The notes under the pieces: generated by a model
Seen by the model: the letters and a program-made list of their open reading frames with translations, nothing else
What the model was told of the DNA's origin: nothing
The model's database searches: none
Position numbers and translations under genes: made by a program
Shown here: positions 24,030 to 33,051 of the stretch, one piece after another
Layout: every line of letters starts with the position of its first letter
How positions within the stretch are numbered: the stretch's first letter is position 1
NCBI GenBank assembly: GCA_904846145.1
Contig: CAJGZL010000001.1
Coordinates: forward strand, 1-64,000
Direction of reading: 5' to 3'
Length of the DNA: 64,000 nucleotides
Origin: Psychrobacter immobilis
GTDB taxonomy: Bacteria > Pseudomonadota > Gammaproteobacteria > Pseudomonadales > Moraxellaceae

Positions 24030-25139
24030 TTACTGTTCATTTGGTTTCATGTCCACTGCATCACTATCTATCATATTACCGGCTTTATTGTCATCATCTA
24101 TTGCATCGCTATCCATCGCATCGTAATAGCCACCGATAGCCTGAATACAGGATTGCACTAGACCTGGACCTCGATATATAAGCCCCGTATAAAGCTGTAC
24201 TAATTCTGCACCCGCTTTTATTTTTTTAACCGCTTTGTCGCCACTATCAATACCACCAACCCCAATTAGTGCAACTTTATCACCCAACTGATCGGAGAAC
24301 TGTTGCAATATTTGGGTACTAGTATGACTGACAGGACGCCCTGATAGACCGCCCATTTGATCACCGTCGCGCAGATCTTCCACCCCTATACGGCTCAAAG
24401 TGGTATTAGTGGCTATAAGTCCATCAATCTCAAAGTCTAATAGCTGCTGGGAGATATAATCAACTTGTTCAGGCTCTAGATCAGGTGCGACTTTTAGCAC
24501 CAGCGGCACGTAAAAGCCGTACTCAGTTGCCAGCTGACTGTGGCGGTTTTTGATGTTGTCTAATAGATGAGTAAGTGCTTCTCCGCTTTGTAGATCACGC
24601 AGATTCTCAGTATTAGGTGAGGAGATATTGACGGTAATATAGGAGGCGTGGGGATAGACGCGCTCTAAACAATACACGTAATCATCAGCTGCTTGCTCAA
24701 CAGGCGTGCTCGCGTTTTTGCCAATATTAATACCTATATTGCCTTTATATTTGCAGTGCTTAACGTTTTCAATCAGGTGCTCAACGCCATGATTATTAAA
24801 GCCCATACGGTTAATAATGGCATCGGCTTGCTTGAGTCGAAACAGGCGAGGCTTATCATTACCCAGTTGTGGCTTTGGGGTGACTGTACCGACCTCAATA
24901 AAACCAAATCCTAACTCGGCAAGCGCATCAATATAGTCGCCATTTTTATCTAGCCCTGCTGCTAAGCCTACTGGATTATTAAACTGCAGACCCATACAAG
25001 TGGTGGGCTGCATGTGCTGACCATAAGCCAAGCCCAAAGCACGCGCTTTATGAGCTTTTTCAAGCAAAGCCAGCGTCATATCATGAGCGTTTTCAGGATC
25101 CATCTTAAATAATAACGGACGCAGTAAGGCGTAAGACAT
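24030..25139 (-). CDS. pyrD: dihydroorotate dehydrogenase (quinone), class 2
   Basis: PyrD oxidises dihydroorotate to orotate at the inner membrane, passing electrons to quinone. The ATG at 25139 is chosen over TTG 25151; it gives the class-2 N-terminal amphipathic segment [19 protein letters not shown]. The FMN barrel shows [28 protein letters not shown] and the catalytic serine in [12 protein letters not shown], typical of class 2. The C-terminus carries a non-conserved acidic tail of about 30 residues rich in Asp. It sits directly upstream of cvpA-purF, joining pyrimidine and purine genes in one direction. Confidence 0.97.
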
Positions 25140-25262
25140 AGCAAAAATCAATCCAAATTAATGGTGAATAATAGGGCAATACAAATAAAATTAACCTATA
25201 AAGGCAATCGCTGCGATTATATCAGCTTAATAGAGATAACACTAAAGTTTCATGTTGAGCAG

Positions 25263-25823
25263 TTAAGGCACTGGACGATTATCAGTCAAAGCAATCCAGC
25301 CTCTAACAATACGGTACAAGTGCCAAATAACGGTAATACCAATAATGAATACGCCAAAGCCGCCCAATGCCATCGAGCCATAAGTCATGCCACTACTGTT
25401 GGCTAGCGTGCCTATACCTAGTACACCAAAAGCGGATAACAAAATGACAGTACCGATGACAAAACCGACAATACTGTACCAAAAGGTCTTAATCTGCCAA
25501 TCAAAATGAGTTGCCAGCCAAGTGTTATCCGCATCGTGACGCTTGATGTAATTCATCACAATAGGCACGATCCATAATAACCCAGCGGTAAAATAGCTCA
25601 GTACATATAACAAGTAAGTAATATGATTATAAGCAGTCAGCGTGCGCTGTTGACTATCAATCATGCTATTACTTTGCCGTTGCTGTGCTAAATCATAACT
25701 CAATTGCGACTGTATATCAGAGTCAGCAAAGAATCGAGGCGGCTCAGTGATTTGCGGTTGGTGGCGCTGACTATTGTTAGTATCGTCATTGTTATCAGCT
25801 TTATTATTTAAAGGATCGTTCAT
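25263..25823 (-). CDS. membrane protein, DUF4870/TMEM-like
   Basis: The 186-residue product starts at ATG 25823; a longer frame reaches 25859 but adds an unlikely leader. A polar, Asn/Gln-rich N-terminus (about 1-70) is followed by three hydrophobic segments (about 68-90, 113-135, 145-172). The spacing, and a YNHITYLLYVLSYFTAGLLWIVPIVMNY-type opening (residues 66-93) with W..THF.WQ.KTF, resembles DUF4870-type membrane proteins. Its function is unknown. It lies between gspM and pyrD on the same strand, with more than 100 bases on each side, so an operon link is weak. Confidence 0.65.
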   Translation of the reverse strand: MNDPLNNKADNNDDTNNSQRHQPQITEPPRFFADSDIQSQLSYDLAQQRQSNSMIDSQQRTLTAYNHITYLLYVLSYFTAGLLWIVPIVMNYIKRHDADNTWLATHFDWQIKTFWYSIVGFVIGTVILLSAFGVLGIGTLANSSGMTYGSMALGGFGVFIIGITVIWHLYRIVRGWIALTDNRPVP

Positions 25824-25971
25824 AGTAAGTATCCATAATAGGCGGCAACCACGCAGCATTTTTGCTCAAAAGCTTTAGGACACGCCTAATAAAGTATTTT
25901 GAACCTTATCATTGTTTTATTGTGGCATTATTGAGCGTTTTCAAGATAAACCGCTGCAATGCTCATTAGCA

Positions 25972-26511
25972 TTAGTTAATAATAGTAGCTTGTACTTGGA
26001 TCTGTTTAGTCGCTATATCTTGTTGCATCGTCAATTGATCAAACTGCCAGCCTTGCTGCTCAAGCTGACCGAGCGCATTACTGACCACGCTTTGACTATT
26101 ATTGGCAAAACTTAATTGCACTGACTCGCCAGCCGCGACGACTTGCGCATCATTGATACCTGACCCATTGAGTAGAGCACTAACTCGACTAGCCGCAGGC
26201 TGCGCTGTACCCTCATTATTGTTATTATTGATCGCACTGCTATCGATATTACCCGCTTGCGAGCGTAACCAAAAATAGTCCGTGACTTGCTGTTGGTACT
26301 CAGTTTTGCTGTCTTTGGCGGATTGATACAGTGTATAGCCACCAAACCCACCAATGAATAATAGTAAAAATACTAATAAGACACTCAGAGCCAGCTGATC
26401 GCGCGCGGACAGGGCTTGCCAGCGTGACCATAGCAAATCTTGATAGCCACTGGTACGAGCAGTTGCAGAGCTTGCAGATGCATTATTGTTGCGACGCTTT
26501 AATATACTCAT
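25972..26511 (-). CDS. gspM: type II secretion system protein M
   Basis: GspM is an inner-membrane platform protein that pairs with GspL. The 179-residue product has a cytoplasmic basic start, one membrane helix (about 40-60, LALSVLLVFLLLFIGGFGGY), then a periplasmic ferredoxin-like domain. The helix preceded by WQALSARDQ and followed by LYQSAKDSKTEYQQQV is the family pattern. It directly follows gspL with a 30-base gap. Other T2SS genes are not in the window, so the system is split across the chromosome, as known for Acinetobacter relatives. Confidence 0.88.
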   Translation of the reverse strand: MSILKRRNNNASASSATARTSGYQDLLWSRWQALSARDQLALSVLLVFLLLFIGGFGGYTLYQSAKDSKTEYQQQVTDYFWLRSQAGNIDSSAINNNNNEGTAQPAASRVSALLNGSGINDAQVVAAGESVQLSFANNSQSVVSNALGQLEQQGWQFDQLTMQQDIATKQIQVQATIIN

Positions 26512-26541
26512 CCTGTAGCCTTGTTCAAATCTTATCTTAAT

Positions 26542-27834
26542 TTAAGAATCTGCGCTGAGCCTAGCAGCAGGCTGATTATTTGCGGCATCATTTACTGCGT
26601 TGTCTGCGATACTCACTGTAATCTCGCCACTAAATTGTCCTTGCTCGCCACTATTGACCCGCTGTAAGCTGGCACTTAAGCCTTGCTCATTCAAAGTATT
26701 GGCGAATTTATCCAAGCTATCACGATCGGGCGCTATGATAGTAAAGCTCAAGCTCGTTGGTTGTACAGTCAAAGATTGTGCTTGCAGAGACGACTGCTTT
26801 ATCAAAGGCGAAATACGTGCTAAAGCTGCCATAGAAGGCGAGGTTTGAGTACCAGTACGCAGCTTATCACGCATCTGCGCCTCAAGCCCTGTCCGTGGGT
26901 TTAAGCGCTCATCAACGAACCAAGACTGATACTGCGTCGCAATCGCTTGCTCAGTAGCGCTGGCAGCCGCATCGTAACGATACCACTGCAAGCCATCTGC
27001 CGCCATTTGTAGTACTAGTGCTGATAAGACGACTATCAGAGTTATGCGTAGATAAGGGGATAACTTAGTGTCTGAGGTCTTGACAAAAAAGTTAAGCGTA
27101 TGACGTTCAGGATAGTCAATAGGTTTAGGACGAATGGTGAATGGCGTCAATAACAGCTGCTGATCGCTAATGAGGGTGGCCGTCTCAGCGGTTACATTGT
27201 TAGTGTAGTCACTATCTGCTGTATCGCTAATAGCTGGCAAGCTACACACTTCGCTTAGCTGTGGCAGACGCTCAAATAGTAGCGGTAGATAGCTGACTGC
27301 AAGACCTTGATACTCCGCCTGACGCACTAAGGTGGTATCCGCATCTTGATAGAGAGCAACTTGCTGCCCTGCCCCCTCCTCAGGAGTCGGTAATAACAGA
27401 AAATCAGGGAGTAAGGCGTTAACTTTTAGCCCTGCTAAAGCTGCACCTTGTTGCCAAGTTTCGATATCGTTTTGTGCTAAGGCATACAGATAAGAGGCAT
27501 TGGTCTGATTAATCTGCTTTACGCTCAGCTGCTCAATCGGCGTCAGTGATGTCTCCTCGAACAGATATTGTCTGCCTGTACTCCCTAGCTGCTTAAGCTG
27601 CGCGCTAGTCAATTGAGTGTCAACTTGCAACATATGGCTAGTAGGAAAATACAGACACAACGCCTTACTGCTATTGGCTCTATGGCTAGAATTGATACCA
27701 TTAGAATTAACATAAGTATCATGCAGCTGTTGCCAGCTATCGACCGTTTGCCACTGACCCGTCTCTACTTGCCAAACAGCCAGCGAGCTGTGCTGCGCTC
27801 TCAACCATACCTGTAACACTAAGCGCGTCCTCAA
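26542..27834 (-). CDS. gspL: type II secretion system protein L
   Basis: GspL bridges the cytoplasmic ATPase GspE and the periplasmic GspM. The 430-residue product shows the actin-like cytoplasmic domain (about 1-230, with LCLYFPTSHMLQVDTQLT and QYLFEETSLTPIEQL), a single membrane helix (about 262-281, ITLIVVLSALVLQMAADGL), and a C-terminal periplasmic domain ending in ITVSIAD. It is followed by gspM and preceded by sixA at 64 bases; sixA, gspL and gspM may be cotranscribed. The gene is rich in Gln codons. Confidence 0.9.
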   Translation of the reverse strand: MRTRLVLQVWLRAQHSSLAVWQVETGQWQTVDSWQQLHDTYVNSNGINSSHRANSSKALCLYFPTSHMLQVDTQLTSAQLKQLGSTGRQYLFEETSLTPIEQLSVKQINQTNASYLYALAQNDIETWQQGAALAGLKVNALLPDFLLLPTPEEGAGQQVALYQDADTTLVRQAEYQGLAVSYLPLLFERLPQLSEVCSLPAISDTADSDYTNNVTAETATLISDQQLLLTPFTIRPKPIDYPERHTLNFFVKTSDTKLSPYLRITLIVVLSALVLQMAADGLQWYRYDAAASATEQAIATQYQSWFVDERLNPRTGLEAQMRDKLRTGTQTSPSMAALARISPLIKQSSLQAQSLTVQPTSLSFTIIAPDRDSLDKFANTLNEQGLSASLQRVNSGEQGQFSGEITVSIADNAVNDAANNQPAARLSADS

Positions 27835-27898
27835 TGAATAAAATAACGAAGTAAAGAGCTTACAAAAACAGTAACGTTAAGCTTAGCTATTATTAAGG

Positions 27899-28354
27899 CT
27901 AAGGCTGCTCAGGTACAAAGCGATCAATCTCGGTTGCCATACCTGACATGACAAACTCCATCTCAAATACCCGAGCCTCTGCTAGTGCAAAGCTCTCTGG
28001 GCTTATTCCTGTGAGCAAGCTGGCAATGTTAGCAATAATGGACATATGACAGACCACTATCAGACACTCAGCTTCGATACGGCTAAGCGCTGCCAACGCT
28101 GCACGAGCGTCGTCACCTGGAGTAATATTATCTTGTATAGTAACAGGTATTTTTGGTGCAATCGCTTGTAATTGTTTTAGCGTCTGCTGCGCTCGAACGT
28201 AGGGACTGACCATAAAATAATCAGGCTGATAGTTGTCGATAATATAACCCGCCGTTTGCGCAGCTTGTCGCTGACCAAAATCCGTTAGCTGGCGCGCACT
28301 ATCAGGATGACTATACTCTCCTGCTTGTCCATGACGTATTAATATAATTTTCAT
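27899..28354 (-). CDS. sixA: phosphohistidine phosphatase SixA
   Basis: SixA removes phosphate from histidine in phosphorelay proteins (ArcB, and NPr of the PTS-Ntr system in E. coli). The 151-residue length is typical for this histidine-phosphatase clade. The RHG motif is at 7-9 (LIRHGQAGE) with nucleophile H8; VSPYVRAQQTLKQL carries the second arginine, and VVCHMSI the second catalytic histidine. It lies between the nuclease-like gene (50 bases upstream) and gspL. Confidence 0.92.
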   Translation of the reverse strand: MKIILIRHGQAGEYSHPDSARQLTDFGQRQAAQTAGYIIDNYQPDYFMVSPYVRAQQTLKQLQAIAPKIPVTIQDNITPGDDARAALAALSRIEAECLIVVCHMSIIANIASLLTGISPESFALAEARVFEMEFVMSGMATEIDRFVPEQP

Positions 28355-28404
28355 AGCGTCCTTTTGTACATTTTAAAGCATTATTTTTAGTTATTTCGAT
28401 AAAG

Positions 28405-29469
28405 TTACTTGTTAAGCGTTTTTTCTATCCATTCAGGGGTCATTGCTCTTAATGCTTCTTTAGCACCGTGACATTCATAGACCGGGTATTCATCTTTTAG
28501 AGAAGTTAAGTTCAGGTAAGCATGTAGCTTATATTCATCTTTATTTTTTAAATAAATACCATATCTCAATCCGTCCGTAACTATCAGTCTGTTGCAGTTG
28601 TCTTTACCAACAGAGTACGATTGTGCTTGTGATTTAGCTGAAAGACATGAATTCCCTTTTTTCTTAGCTTCCACTACTATCTGTAAATTTTCATCTTTTC
28701 TTGGTAGTTGGCTAAATAAAGCAATGTCTACTTTATTCCACTCAATAGCCATCTTTTGAGGTGTCCAGCCAAGTGCTCGCAACAACGGAACAACCAGATA
28801 AGCAACCGTTTCAAATTCTGATGGGTTGTCATTGTTACGGTTATACCATTTGGCTATTCTTATTAATTCGTCTATTTCATCCATTAGTGTCTGAATAGAG
28901 TTACTAGATATTCCTTCATTAAAAAGATATTCAGAAATTTCTTCAAAATTGATCGTTTTTTGAGATACTGCCTTAGGTAAGGCTACGAGTTCTCTGTCGT
29001 AATTCTTGGTAACATCCAATGTTTCTAGCCATTTTTCAACCAATTCTGAATCTAAACGTTGAGTAGGGTCACCTAGTTTTAAAGAATAAATAGGGAATTT
29101 CTCTTTTCCTTTCCATAGCCATTTAACCCTTCTTACATGTTGCAAATCCCAACCATCAATATCAGAAAAGTCTTCAAGCCATTCGTACTCGCCAACAATG
29201 ACACCAACCCCATAAATTCTATTAGTTCCCAAACGTAATACAACAATATCACCATCTTTCATTTTTTCAGCGAATCTTGATAAGTTTGTAATCTTCTTCG
29301 AACTCGTACCATTTTCTTCTAAGATAACTTTAACGTCAGGAAATACTCCAGCATTTCCTGGCCCATTCAAAATCACATCCCATTTAAGACAGGTTTCTAT
29401 ATAATTTCTGTCTGTGTCACCTGCTGCTTGTTGCCAAATAACTTTATTATCTATATTCATAATTTGCAT
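28405..29469 (-). CDS. predicted PUA/EVE-like plus PD-(D/E)XK nuclease protein
   Basis: The 354-residue protein has three visible parts. Residues about 60-135 resemble an EVE/PUA-type reader domain (KDGDIVVLRLGTNRIYGVGVIVGEY, a strand-turn seen in proteins that bind modified bases). Residues 170-215 are a helical linker. Residues about 215-345 match the N-terminal nuclease fold of type I restriction HsdR subunits: E219 in a helix followed by VVPLLRALGW, then D248 (VDIALF), E267-x-K269 (IVVEAKK), and Q281/Q283 (SAKSQAQSY). This is a complete PD-(D/E)XK active-site set. It reads as a stand-alone modification-dependent or defence nuclease. No helicase or methylase partner is adjacent. The DNA is AT-rich (17 G+C in 28861-28920) compared with core genes. 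No strong ribosome site precedes the start (second ATG at 29460). The activity is inference. Confidence 0.6.
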   Translation of the reverse strand: MQIMNIDNKVIWQQAAGDTDRNYIETCLKWDVILNGPGNAGVFPDVKVILEENGTSSKKITNLSRFAEKMKDGDIVVLRLGTNRIYGVGVIVGEYEWLEDFSDIDGWDLQHVRRVKWLWKGKEKFPIYSLKLGDPTQRLDSELVEKWLETLDVTKNYDRELVALPKAVSQKTINFEEISEYLFNEGISSNSIQTLMDEIDELIRIAKWYNRNNDNPSEFETVAYLVVPLLRALGWTPQKMAIEWNKVDIALFSQLPRKDENLQIVVEAKKKGNSCLSAKSQAQSYSVGKDNCNRLIVTDGLRYGIYLKNKDEYKLHAYLNLTSLKDEYPVYECHGAKEALRAMTPEWIEKTLNK

Positions 29470-29530
29470 AAAATAAAGGGGAAGTTAATTTTAGACGAGA
29501 ACTTAATACTTTCATCTCGCAGAGCAACGC

Positions 29531-29566
29531 CAATCTATTATATTTATTATTAAATATAATAGATTG
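29531..29566. repeat. perfect AT-rich 16-bp hairpin
   Basis: Bases 29531-29546 and 29551-29566 pair perfectly around a four-base TTAT loop. It is almost pure A+T and is not followed by a T-run on either strand. It lies between the gpsA end and the nuclease-gene start, 62 bases upstream of the latter, so it could be a regulatory site, a weak terminator or a scar. Confidence 0.7.
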
Positions 29567-29673
29567 CTTTAAGAACTTGATAATATCAAGAGACGGAGCG
29601 GCTCTTAAACATAAGACACATAATAAGTATAATCAAGCTGCCTGATTGAATTTTTGTATCGGCCTCAATAAAA

Positions 29674-30978
29674 CTAGTCATCATCAGATTTATCAGCATC
29701 ATCATCACTATTCTCTTGCGCAGCAGCGTTCATCTGCGCGGTTAATGCAGCGTTACTATGATCGTGCGGCATCACAAACTCGACATCACTACGGAATCCT
29801 GCTTCCATTAGATGTAGAGCCACGCCTAATGCCGCTTTATCTTCATAGATCACTGCATATAAAGCATGGGTGATTGGCATATAGATGCCCTGTCTGGTCG
29901 CTTTTTCATGTACCTGCTGAATGGTATTGACCCCTTCAGCGGTCTGACCTAACTTTTTAACCGCCGCATCAATACTCATACCGCGACCGAGCATATTACC
30001 GATACGATAATTACGACTGAGCTCAGAGCTACAAGTAGCATACAGATCACCTACCCCTGATAAGCCTAAAAAGGTCAATGGGTTGGCACCTTCCTCAAGC
30101 CCAAAACGACTCATCTCGGCAAGTGAGCGAGTCAATAGCATTGCTTTAGTATTCTCGCCAACATCGTAAGCTGCCGCCATACCCATCGCGATAGCATAGA
30201 TGTTTTTGAGAGCGCCACCAAGCTCAACCCCACGGATGTCATCGCTGGCAAAGACACGGAAAAACGCACTGTGTAGCGCGGCTTGTACTGCATGACGTAG
30301 TGGCTCAGATTGACTGGCAATCACTGTCGCTGATGGCATATTTTTCATGATTTCAATAGCCAAATTCGGCCCTGACATCACCCCAAAGTTCACCTCTGGC
30401 AACTCATCTTTGATGATATCACTCATCATAGCAAAAGTATCTTTTTCCATACCTTTAGTGAGTGACACTATCGACTGCCCAGTGATGTAAGGGGCTATGT
30501 TTTTAAGGGTTTGACGAAAGGCTGAACTCGGTACTGCCAAAAAGATAATATCTTTATCTTTAACCGCTGACTCCAAGTCATGGCTAAATTTGAGTCGATC
30601 ATCGAGCTTAAATCCAGGCAGATACTTCTTGTTCATGCGTAGCTTCGTCATTGACTTAACCGTCCGCTTATCGCGCACCCAAAGCGTGGTATCACAGCCA
30701 TTACGTGCGGCTAAGTTTGCCATTGCCGTACCAAAGCTGCCACCGCCCAAAAACGCCAAGCGCAGTTTGGTTGGCGACTTATGAATATCATCCATATTAT
30801 TGGCTACAGCAGATTCTACGCTACTAGGATTAAGCTTTTTACGCACAAGTCCTGACTTGTTAGCGCGCTCAATAATAGTTGCCAGCAAGCCGCCTTGCTT
30901 TTCATTGTTAGCGTTATTAGCATCAGAATCATTGTGATTATCTATATCACTGTTAGGCGTTTTATTATCTTTAGTCAT
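29674..30978 (-). CDS. gpsA: glycerol-3-phosphate dehydrogenase (NAD(P)+)
   Basis: GpsA reduces dihydroxyacetone phosphate to sn-glycerol-3-phosphate for phospholipid synthesis. The start at ATG 30978 gives 434 residues; the family is about 335. The surplus is an acidic, Asn/Asp-rich N-terminal tail of about 75 residues and a short Asp-rich C-terminal tail. The core starts with the dinucleotide loop LAFLGGGSFGTAMANLA, then VPSSAFRQTL, the catalytic lysine in VELGGALKNIYAIAMGMA, and LSGVGDLYATC. It heads a same-strand series (nuclease, sixA, gspL, gspM) and follows a nitroreductase gene with a gap of about 110 bases. Confidence 0.96.
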   Translation of the reverse strand: MTKDNKTPNSDIDNHNDSDANNANNEKQGGLLATIIERANKSGLVRKKLNPSSVESAVANNMDDIHKSPTKLRLAFLGGGSFGTAMANLAARNGCDTTLWVRDKRTVKSMTKLRMNKKYLPGFKLDDRLKFSHDLESAVKDKDIIFLAVPSSAFRQTLKNIAPYITGQSIVSLTKGMEKDTFAMMSDIIKDELPEVNFGVMSGPNLAIEIMKNMPSATVIASQSEPLRHAVQAALHSAFFRVFASDDIRGVELGGALKNIYAIAMGMAAAYDVGENTKAMLLTRSLAEMSRFGLEEGANPLTFLGLSGVGDLYATCSSELSRNYRIGNMLGRGMSIDAAVKKLGQTAEGVNTIQQVHEKATRQGIYMPITHALYAVIYEDKAALGVALHLMEAGFRSDVEFVMPHDHSNAALTAQMNAAAQENSDDDADKSDDD

Positions 30979-31086
30979 ATCTATTATCCAATCCTCTGAT
31001 ATTATTTTGGTTGCTTGTAGGCTTGACACCTAAAGATATAGCTTTATTTTACAGCAATCTCAGTTTGCTTTAAGTTTATATTAGTT

Positions 31087-31725
31087 CTAAGACTCAAAGC
31101 GCAACAAAGTCTCGATATCGATAGGCTTACGTGAGGTTTTTTCCACAGGACTTGTACCTGTATAGACAAAAGCGGTGACATAGTCATCCTCGCCAATACC
31201 AAAGTAAGCTTTTACAGCGGGCTCATTACATAATAATCCTGTCCGCCATACTGTGCTAAAGCCTTGTGCTTTTAATGCTAATATCAGATTCTGTACCGCA
31301 GAGCCTGCGCTTAACATCTGTTCGAAGGGGGGTACTTTTTTATTTTCTTGCATTTGAGTGACTACGGTAATAATGACGGGCGCGCGCAGGGGTAGATGAG
31401 CAGTTTTATGCACAGTTTTCTCAGATAACTCTTCATCATCAATAGCTGCTTTAGCTTGAGCGGCAGCGACCAGTGCTTGACCTAATTGATGTCGAGCTTC
31501 ACCTTCGGTAACAATAAAACGCCATGGTCGCAGCTTTTTATGATCAGGGGCGGTTGCTGCGCAGCCAATAGCCGAGCGAATTTGCTCATGATTTGGTGCA
31601 GGCTCATTTAGAGTACCTATGCTACGTCTAGAGTTAATCCAACTAATCAGCTGCTCAGCGCTCATTTGATCGTCAGTATTATCATTAGTTACATCGTCAT
31701 CATCGATATGATTATCTATACTCAT
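31087..31725 (-). CDS. nitroreductase family protein, YdjA-like
   Basis: The 212-residue FMN-dependent reductase has the minimal nitroreductase length. Features include SRRSIGTLNEP near the start (RRS FMN contact), CAATAPDHKKLRPWRFIV (the YdjA-type DHKxLRPWRF string), a central AGSAVQNLILALKAQGFSTVWRTG, and a C-terminal FVYTGTSP. Asp-rich residues open the protein (IDDDDVTNDNTDDQ). YdjA subfamily members have a small active site and unknown natural substrate. The gene lies between zapE and gpsA on the same strand. Confidence 0.88.
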   Translation of the reverse strand: MSIDNHIDDDDVTNDNTDDQMSAEQLISWINSRRSIGTLNEPAPNHEQIRSAIGCAATAPDHKKLRPWRFIVTEGEARHQLGQALVAAAQAKAAIDDEELSEKTVHKTAHLPLRAPVIITVVTQMQENKKVPPFEQMLSAGSAVQNLILALKAQGFSTVWRTGLLCNEPAVKAYFGIGEDDYVTAFVYTGTSPVEKTSRKPIDIETLLRFES

Positions 31726-31813
31726 TATCTATCCTTAATTTTTAATTATTTTTAGTGTTGAATGCTTTCGATAGTTAATCCTAGTTTAATTCTATCAAGC
31801 GCTTTAAAGTATA

Positions 31814-31843
31814 AAGCCATACAAAGCTATTTTTGTATGGCTT
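31814..31843 (-). terminator. 12-bp hairpin after zapE
   Basis: AAGCCATACAAA (31814-31825) pairs perfectly with TTTGTATGGCTT (31832-31843) over a six-base loop. It lies about 93 bases beyond the zapE stop. The T-run on the minus strand is weak, so termination may be inefficient. Confidence 0.6.
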
Positions 31844-31935
31844 ATGCTGAGCATTCTTACAAGCTCACTGTAATAAGTTTGGATACAGTGTAATAAGCAA
31901 TGTATAACAAAATCCATCTTACCTAATAAAAAAGC

Positions 31936-33051
31936 TTATGCTATATCATCAAGGCGATGCTTCATCTTCAAATAATCCTCTGACTGCATCTCAAGCAATC
32001 GTGAGCGCGTACGCTCAATCTCAAAGGCTAACTTTTCGCCTTGATATAAGTCTAAAATAGACTGCTCAGCTCGAATTAACAGTTTGACCCGCCGATCATA
32101 GAACTCATCAACCATATAAATAAAACGCCGAGTCGGATCACGCAGATCGTCGTCTAAGGCAGGTACGGCATTGACCAGCACCGTACTATAACGATTGGCA
32201 ATTTCAATAAAGTCTGACGCTGAGCGCGGCTGCATGCACAAGTGCCGAAAATCACAAAAAAGCATGGTTTCAGTACGGGCGTTTATTTTGACCTCACGAC
32301 CATTGACTTCGATAGGCTCGCTGCTAATCTTAATATTAGTAGATAAACTGGCAAAACGGTTCGCCAGCCAATTATGATTATCTCGCGTCATCGGTGACTT
32401 ATAAAGCTCAGCTTGTTGCAATAGTCGCAGTCGATAATCCACCCCTGCATCGATATTCATCACCGTAGTATGAGTCTCAACCTCAGCTATCGCAGGTAAA
32501 AAACGATCCCGATGCAGACCATCTTTATACAAGCCAGAGGGTTCGATGTTGGAGGTGGCAACTAAAGTCACCCCACGATTAAACAACATAGTAAATAAGT
32601 CGCCTAAAATCATCGCATCGGAGACGTTAGAGACAAAAAACTCATCGAAGCAGATAACAACGGCTTCGTTATAGATAATATCAGCCACTTTTTCTAGGGG
32701 ATCTGCTTGACCCTGAATCTGATTAAGCTCTTTATGTACTCGCTGCATGAAATGATGAAAGTGCTGACGCATCTTGCGATCGATAGTTAGTGAATCATAG
32801 AACATATCCATCATCCACGTCTTACCACGACCGACTCCGCCCCACATATACAAGCCCTTTGGCGCGGCAGGTTTTGATTTTAAAAAACTAAACATGCTCT
32901 TTTTTTGATTCGCACTTTCATTCAGCTGATGGTAGAGATGATCAAGATAGCTCATAGCTTGATGCTGTTGCTCATCTTTATTAAAGCCTTCTTGCTCAAT
33001 GGCTTGCTCGTAGCGCTGCAATGGAGATAAACTCATAATGCGACTCATCAT
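31936..33051 (-). CDS. zapE: cell division protein ZapE (AFG1-like ATPase)
   Basis: ZapE is an ATPase that interacts with FtsZ in the division ring. The 371-residue protein begins LSPLQRYEQAIEQEGF, has Walker A GGVGRGKT at 71-78, a Walker B-type region VICFDEFFVSNVSDAM, sensor VATSNIEPSGLYKDGL, and the late LFCDFRHLC and EFYDRRVKLLIRAE motifs of the family. Three closely spaced ATGs exist (33051, 33048, 33036); the last gives the shortest N-terminus and is equally possible. It is transcribed alone and is followed by a hairpin. Confidence 0.93.
   Translation of the reverse strand: MMSRIMSLSPLQRYEQAIEQEGFNKDEQQHQAMSYLDHLYHQLNESANQKKSMFSFLKSKPAAPKGLYMWGGVGRGKTWMMDMFYDSLTIDRKMRQHFHHFMQRVHKELNQIQGQADPLEKVADIIYNEAVVICFDEFFVSNVSDAMILGDLFTMLFNRGVTLVATSNIEPSGLYKDGLHRDRFLPAIAEVETHTTVMNIDAGVDYRLRLLQQAELYKSPMTRDNHNWLANRFASLSTNIKISSEPIEVNGREVKINARTETMLFCDFRHLCMQPRSASDFIEIANRYSTVLVNAVPALDDDLRDPTRRFIYMVDEFYDRRVKLLIRAEQSILDLYQGEKLAFEIERTRSRLLEMQSEDYLKMKHRLDDIA

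Follow-up and report, generated by a model that had tools for sequence, protein, structure and literature searches.

A predicted base reader joined to an HsdR-type nuclease between gpsA and sixA of Psychrobacter immobilis, a candidate type IV restriction enzyme

What is a single AT-rich gene doing within a run of core genes? This question is raised by a locus in Psychrobacter immobilis (assembly GCA_904846145.1), which we analysed within a window comprising the first 64,000 nucleotides of contig CAJGZL010000001.1. The original prediction, made from the DNA sequence, placed an open reading frame (ORF) at 28405-29469, between gpsA and sixA in a same-strand core run, and regarded it as a possible undescribed defence gene. 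The position and setting were confirmed, and the frame is intact. The gene and its immediate surroundings are as follows:

28405-29469, minus strand: coding sequence with an ATG start for a 354-residue protein, a putative EVE/YTH-type reader plus a predicted HsdR-type PD-(D/E)XK nuclease (from alignment and structure model)
27899-28354, minus strand: SixA-type histidine phosphatase, flanking core gene
29674-31029, minus strand: gpsA, flanking core gene
29531-29566, unstranded: perfect palindrome with 16-nt arms and a 4-nt loop, upstream of the gene

The AT-richness anticipated for this DNA was borne out. The ORF has a GC content of 0.352 and a GC3 of 0.276, against means of 0.444 (sd 0.034) and 0.411 for the 47 window ORFs of at least 150 residues (itself counted in), among which its GC is the second lowest. 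The lowest belongs to ORF 42-1478 (GC 0.335), which matches Schlafen AlbA_2 and directly follows an IS end with which the contig starts (bases 2-39, 100% identity over 38).

Beyond sixA and gpsA lie genes for type II secretion L and M proteins, dihydroorotate dehydrogenase, a nitroreductase, an AFG1-type ATPase and one protein without a Pfam match. A domain search of the eight surrounding genes (24030-33051) agreed with the expectation that no helicase, methylase or specificity gene is nearby, and no methylase, specificity subunit or restriction helicase was found among ten other window ORFs that include these eight. Neither a recognised defence gene nor a recombinase was present among the tested neighbours. 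A terminator scan returned nothing for the gene, the palindrome being absent from its output, and promoter-like sites in the gene region were at chance level (6 found against 5.5 expected).

Predicted reader and nuclease domains

An AlphaFold2 model built from ten sequences (mf35d32ec53b1; mean pLDDT 86.9, pTM 0.84) comprised two domains; a single-sequence prediction (pLDDT 34.7) was discarded. Searching solved structures with Foldseek gave no match at E <= 0.001, the best being YTH domains and PH1033 (1.2e-3), followed by HsdR 3h1t (3.6e-3). Z-scores were obtained by VIA-align re-alignment of Foldseek's own top 1000 candidates, 999 of which were aligned. The following features were delimited:

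29014-29469, minus strand: putative reader domain of EVE/YTH fold, approximately residues 1-152 (structure comparison, profile alignment and PDC-S02 match)
28834-28989, minus strand: predicted helical linker, approximately residues 161-212, with helices at 175-184 and 189-211 (secondary structure of the model)
28408-28833, minus strand: predicted HsdR-type PD-(D/E)XK nuclease domain, residues 213-354 (model and profile matches)
28810-28818, minus strand: E218-F219-E220, with the acidic residues of the first nuclease helix
28726-28728, minus strand: D248, predicted metal ligand
28663-28671, minus strand: E267-A268-K269, (D/E)xK motif
28615-28629, minus strand: Q281-x-x-x-Y285, QxxxY motif of RecB/HsdR type

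A modified-base reader had been proposed for about residues 60-135. The model supports the existence of such a domain but not those limits, which we correct to approximately 1-152. Residues 9-152 of the predicted model aligned with PH1033 (Z 11.6), which we take to be an EVE protein, residues 1-161 with YTHDC1 carrying an N6mA oligonucleotide (Z 10.8), and residues 9-158 with the EVE-HNH restriction enzyme VcaM4I (PDB 6yex; Z 10.5). YTH domains bound to m6A RNA were also among the best fold matches. In PADLOC, the PDC-S02 model matched residues 52-118 (E 4.7e-7), a match covering model positions 55-117 of 346, and PDLC04815 was matched by 7 of the 11 aligned family sequences at E <= 0.01.

A reader profile made from 10 family sequences aligned by hhalign with the readers of six McrB-like AAA proteins (98.3%, E 1.1e-14) and with those of three PDC-S02 proteins (96.0%, E 3.7e-9). 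An unrelated control profile, that of the PDC-S02 nuclease, gave 0.4%. On this profile evidence the reader is homologous to the McrB-embedded and PDC-S02 readers, the resemblance being more than chance relative to the control. From fold and homology the domain is predicted to bind modified bases in DNA, and the conserved aromatic residues at positions 30, 107 and 117 may line its pocket. Elsewhere in the genus (genome G008) we observed a stand-alone frame of 169 residues resembling the reader (L003), located by eye near a methylase-like gene.

The C-terminal part of the model resembles restriction nucleases: residues 213-354 aligned with HsdR 3h1t (Z 12.5, rmsd 2.3, 114 residues aligned) and residues 194-349 with the DrdV restriction enzyme (Z 10.0). 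The predicted structure therefore contains the nuclease fold that the original assignment to the HsdR_N type implied. HSDR_N_2 scored 17.8 bits on the single window protein, under the Pfam cut-off of 25, and HSDR_N was matched by 9 of the 11 sequences in the family alignment (E <= 0.1, best 2.1e-7). An hhalign comparison of the nuclease profile with the genome's own HsdR-type protein (86.4%, E 4.7e-6) paired the upstream E, the D (D248 in the window protein), ExK and QxxxY.

Nine residues are identical in all 11 aligned family sequences (E218, E220, Q238, E243, D248, E267, K269, Q281 and Y285). The proposed active-site residues D248 and E267-x-K269 stand, but the proposed upstream acidic residue does not, position 219 being a phenylalanine between the acidic E218 and E220. 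The QxxxY motif was absent from that proposal and is added here. In the portion of the literature on EcoR124I used here, the HsdR nuclease domain has three active-site residues plus QxxxY, with cleavage coupled to translocation (PMC4454674). Pfam matched no helicase, AAA or HNH domain in the 354-residue protein.

Other libraries contributed little. Sequence searches against solved structures gave no credible match (9, 1 and 1 hits with best E 0.0027, 0.087 and 0.83; one further search was empty). The hits, which included a cysteine desulfurase, an allergen, a repeat protein and chains of antibody-like and TAL type, were dropped as seemingly unrelated. Two entries of a viral structure library fell below E 0.001, one of them named as an HsdR N-terminal domain; both had an rmsd >16 and were dropped. 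PHROGs returned one weak entry (E 0.048). Weak matches to mad2 (4/11 family sequences), REase_II (2/11), CARF (1/11) and JetC (1/11) in PADLOC, and to TyrRSs_C (2/11), PDDEXK_9 and other single entries in Pfam, were set aside. Clear PADLOC matches were limited to the reader, the weak mad2 match (E 0.0072) touching the nuclease, and NCBIfam holds no family for the window protein; annotation from these two libraries therefore probably misses the gene.

Distribution, acquisition and relatives

Comparison of the gpsA-sixA interval across Psychrobacter, as the original prediction had proposed, revealed that the gene is not conserved. The full protein was present in 1 of 100 genomes of the genus, namely the window's own, and four more carried the first domain only (5 matches in total). 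Among 398 genomes of the phylum, a family profile at E <= 1e-10 matched this same genome alone. We located sixA in 24 further genomes of the genus, not counting 13 other-order genomes that lacked a sixA match at E <= 1e-20. In every one of the 24, gpsA adjoins sixA without the gene, and the distance from the end of the gpsA match to sixA is 28-344 bases, compared with 1322 in the window. Two features bear on how the interval was altered:

28366-29715, unstranded: interval in whose place the same-species genome G031 has 96 bases, a site without the gene
29595-29662, unstranded: IS relic (right end of a 1.2-kb element) between the gene and gpsA, outer limit approximate (aligned core 29607-29662)

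The flanks of the G031 site are 93% and 98% identical to the window. The intergenic part of that site differs from the window, no clean insertion junction was found and no target-site duplication was seen at the insertion. The 56-base core of the relic is 87.5% identical to the right end of an IS of which six copies were read in the same genome; this element, which we take to be of the IS3 group, encodes an rve-type transposase (rve domains). The relic indicates that an IS once sat beside the gene. The window gene is horizontally acquired.

Its relatives, 51-68% identical, are scattered over several phyla. A pattern-limited scan of genome contigs from 84,980 species yielded eight, from Photobacterium, Thalassomonas, Anaerobacillus and five metagenome genomes (named as Nitrospirae, Saprospiraceae, Planctomycetota, Deltaproteobacteria and Bacteroidota). 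Plasmid records contained three, two from Cupriavidus metallidurans (57.5%) and one on a Photobacterium toruni plasmid (29.7%); IMG/VR contributed one (L017), from one of four scans, and the phage records contained none. As measured on the proteins, identity to the window protein does not follow taxonomy (67% for a deltaproteobacterial fragment, 64% for Saprospiraceae, 57% for Anaerobacillus). These counts retain partial relatives: L010 is cut by a contig end, L011 ends early, L012 has the nuclease half only and L016 is missing the initial part of its reader. In L012 (8010-8609) the nuclease half stands alone at 67% identity, with an integrase approximately 2.3 kb away. L016 (8750-10864, on the P. 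toruni plasmid) starts just past an annotated IS3 transposase and was perhaps truncated by it.

Neighbouring genes were searched in part, with Pfam or PADLOC, at 11 loci (L006-L014, L016 and L017, with L015 omitted because it represents another strain of L014). At 10 of the 11, a recognised defence or mobility gene lay within approximately 5.5 kb, a proportion to be read with caution, such genes being common in variable regions. L006 has GajA and GajB, with GajB 4.2 kb away, and at the planctomycete locus L011 (8920-10110) a GajB-like helicase ORF overlaps the end of the gene (E 2.9e-85, profile positions 75-435 of 565). Two serine recombinases occur at both L008 and L017, accompanied at L008 by two AbiH genes. 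Integrases are present at L007, L010 (approximately 70 bases upstream) and L012, a Mu/TnsB-type transposase at L014 and MkoA at L016. At L009 the two proteins tested revealed DUF2779 and no recognised defence or mobility gene. The distant relative L013 (33% identity) directly follows a specificity gene within a type I restriction-modification (RM) cluster, with an HsdR-like gene also upstream and a methylase gene 2 kb downstream; it is the sole locus seen inside such a cluster. We regard these neighbourhoods as supporting evidence only.

Proposed mechanism and rival explanations

We favour, with a probability of roughly 0.75, the interpretation that the gene, a solitary defence gene disseminated by horizontal transfer, encodes a one-polypeptide, motor-free, modification-dependent (type IV) restriction endonuclease. 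The single-gene, type IV-like nuclease first suggested is thus supported by the model as the best reading, the predicted fold and the distribution both agreeing with it. The protein probably destroys invading DNA bearing modified bases, whether in an anti-phage or an anti-plasmid role. We know of no relative with an established activity. Further points against the interpretation are that no recognised defence gene was found among the tested neighbours of the window gene, that the phage records contained no relative and just one of four IMG/VR scans yielded one, and that Foldseek matched no solved structure at E <= 0.001.

In the mechanism that we propose, the N-terminal EVE/YTH-type domain would flip a modified base of incoming DNA into the aromatic pocket to which positions 30, 107 and 117 are candidate contributors. 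Binding of the base would position or release the C-terminal HsdR-type nuclease through the helical linker, and a dimer would cut nearby with little sequence preference. Whereas the HsdR nuclease works with an ATP-driven motor, in the window protein the reader would take the motor's place. The published description of VcaM4I, in the part cited here, has the EVE domain flipping a modified cytosine into its pocket while EVE domain and linker block the nuclease (PMC7897488); by analogy, we infer that binding of the base licenses cutting.

The base recognised may be of either kind. The YTH domain of Thermococcus gammatolerans McrB is described as reading 6mA (portions of PMC12707154 and PMC7897488) and the EVE domain of VcaM4I reads a cytosine mark; cytosine and adenine marks are therefore both possible. 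The host itself may constrain the choice. Its genome contains a C5 cytosine methylase (L058; contig C1, near 307,300-308,150), with a weak RE_HpaII match in the same frame (E 0.00019, below cut-off), a sequence match that suggests possible 5mC in the host, and N6_Mtase is matched in it 11 times, in some cases by fragments of a single gene. A broad reader of 5mC or 6mA would therefore risk self-cutting. If the host methylases are active, the enzyme would have to spare the marks that they make, and a target that is hypermodified or dependent on context would be more likely. More tentatively, the protein may represent a distinct type IV family in which a base-flipping reader of YTH/EVE type directly activates an HsdR/RecB-type nuclease and has a selectivity unlike that of known enzymes; as part of the same speculative proposal, that selectivity could be for a hypermodified phage base, or for 6mA or 5mC in a context absent from the host. 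If active, a motor-free enzyme of 354 residues would be convenient for mapping base modifications and would also constitute a compact anti-phage gene.

Four other explanations were weighed. The reader might recognise modified RNA instead of DNA, and the nuclease might act on RNA or serve as an effector of abortive infection. RNA too can be read by YTH and EVE domains, which speaks against an exclusively DNA-directed reading; the best fold matches include YTH domains in complex with m6A RNA, and in the portion of PMC11090510 considered, EVE-like domains occur in McrBC relatives for which RNA is the predicted target. Nevertheless, the nuclease most resembles HsdR and DrdV, both of which belong to DNA restriction enzymes, and retains D, ExK and QxxxY, and VcaM4I, with the same kind of reader fold, is described as flipping modified bases in DNA (PMC7897488, in part). 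We therefore consider an RNA target unlikely.

Slightly less likely still is that the protein is part of, or left over from, a modification-protected RM system whose protecting methylase resides elsewhere in the host. Such an origin would suit an HsdR-like nuclease in a genome with N6_Mtase and C5 methylase matches, and the location of L013 inside a type I RM cluster fits a role within an RM system and counts against a solitary one. However, testing the eight genes that surround the window gene (24030-33051) revealed no methylase or specificity gene, nor was one present among the tested part of the neighbours of the other relatives, and the second domain has a base-reader fold, not that of a known target-recognition domain.

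It is improbable that the gene is a mobile-element weapon, a cargo that attacks the modified DNA of rival elements and defends the host incidentally. The recombinases, integrases and Mu/TnsB-type transposase at L007, L008, L010, L012, L014 and L017 and the IS relic beside the window gene would be in keeping with this, yet the window gene stands alone between core genes, without a recombinase among its tested neighbours; the molecular mechanism would in any case be that of the type IV enzyme, with only the beneficiary differing. Finally, apart from the position inside a core-gene run, nothing was found in favour of a housekeeping role in DNA repair or quality control. The distribution contradicts such a role (presence in 1 of 100 genus genomes, a same-species genome without the gene and relatives over distant phyla), which is scarcely credible.

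Comparison with known systems

Members of the window protein's reader family are also embedded in AAA proteins resembling McrB, of which L002, L004 and L005 belong to the window's genus. There the reader accompanies an AAA motor and a downstream McrC-family gene, whereas the window protein combines reader and nuclease without a motor. AAA_5 was matched in both of the McrB-like proteins checked by Pfam (L002 and L055, of six), and a McrC-family PF10117 match was found in the ORF following L002 and in that following L004, the two loci tested. The window protein and its tested neighbours include no McrBC pair of AAA GTPase McrB and McrC, the sole AAA protein among those neighbours being of AFG1 type.

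PDC-S02, a PADLOC phage defence candidate, shares with the window protein a homologous reader and is similar to it in length and domain order. Fifteen genomes matched it; we used only the three with a match over most of the model, the others being mostly reader or nuclease alone. These three near-whole-model members (L048-L050, PDLC04815) end in Mrr_cat, the profile of which gave no alignment with the window nuclease profile (0.6%), and the window protein gives no whole-model PDC-S02 match with an Mrr-type nuclease. One reader family is thus found in at least three cutting contexts, namely the HsdR-type fusion of the window protein, the Mrr-type fusion of PDC-S02 and motor-driven McrB, a natural set with which to ask to what extent the choice of modified DNA for attack depends on the reader alone.

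With type I HsdR, the window protein shares the fold (3h1t) and the D, ExK and QxxxY motifs but, at 354 residues, has no helicase, and neither HsdM nor HsdS was among the tested neighbours. CMoRE, a type IV enzyme of the GIY-YIG kind, is likewise a single-protein, modification-dependent restriction enzyme; in the part of its description drawn upon here, the GIY-YIG nuclease is N-terminal and the sensor C-terminal (PMC12923530), and it is by this description that the two are set apart. VcaM4I is similar in being a single protein with an N-terminal EVE domain, a linker helix and a C-terminal nuclease. Its nuclease, however, is HNH and its target 5mC/5hmC according to the portion of PMC7897488 cited, in contrast to the HsdR-type PD-(D/E)XK nuclease of the window protein.

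A literature search returned no paper on the window protein family; many subscription papers lay outside its reach and a description elsewhere is possible. The pertinent part of the survey by Bell, Wolf and Koonin (2020; PMC7641849) names EVE-McrB as the most frequent EVE architecture among defence systems and includes EVE-PD(D/E)XK proteins among the putative type IV restriction enzymes. The text of its section 9 names neither the window family nor an HsdR-type nuclease with QxxxY, although the class as presented there shares with the window protein a base reader and a PD-(D/E)XK nuclease within one polypeptide and a predicted dependence on modification. The suggestion of an undescribed defence gene accordingly holds for the family but not for the kind: the window protein is a new family of the already predicted EVE-PD(D/E)XK type IV kind.
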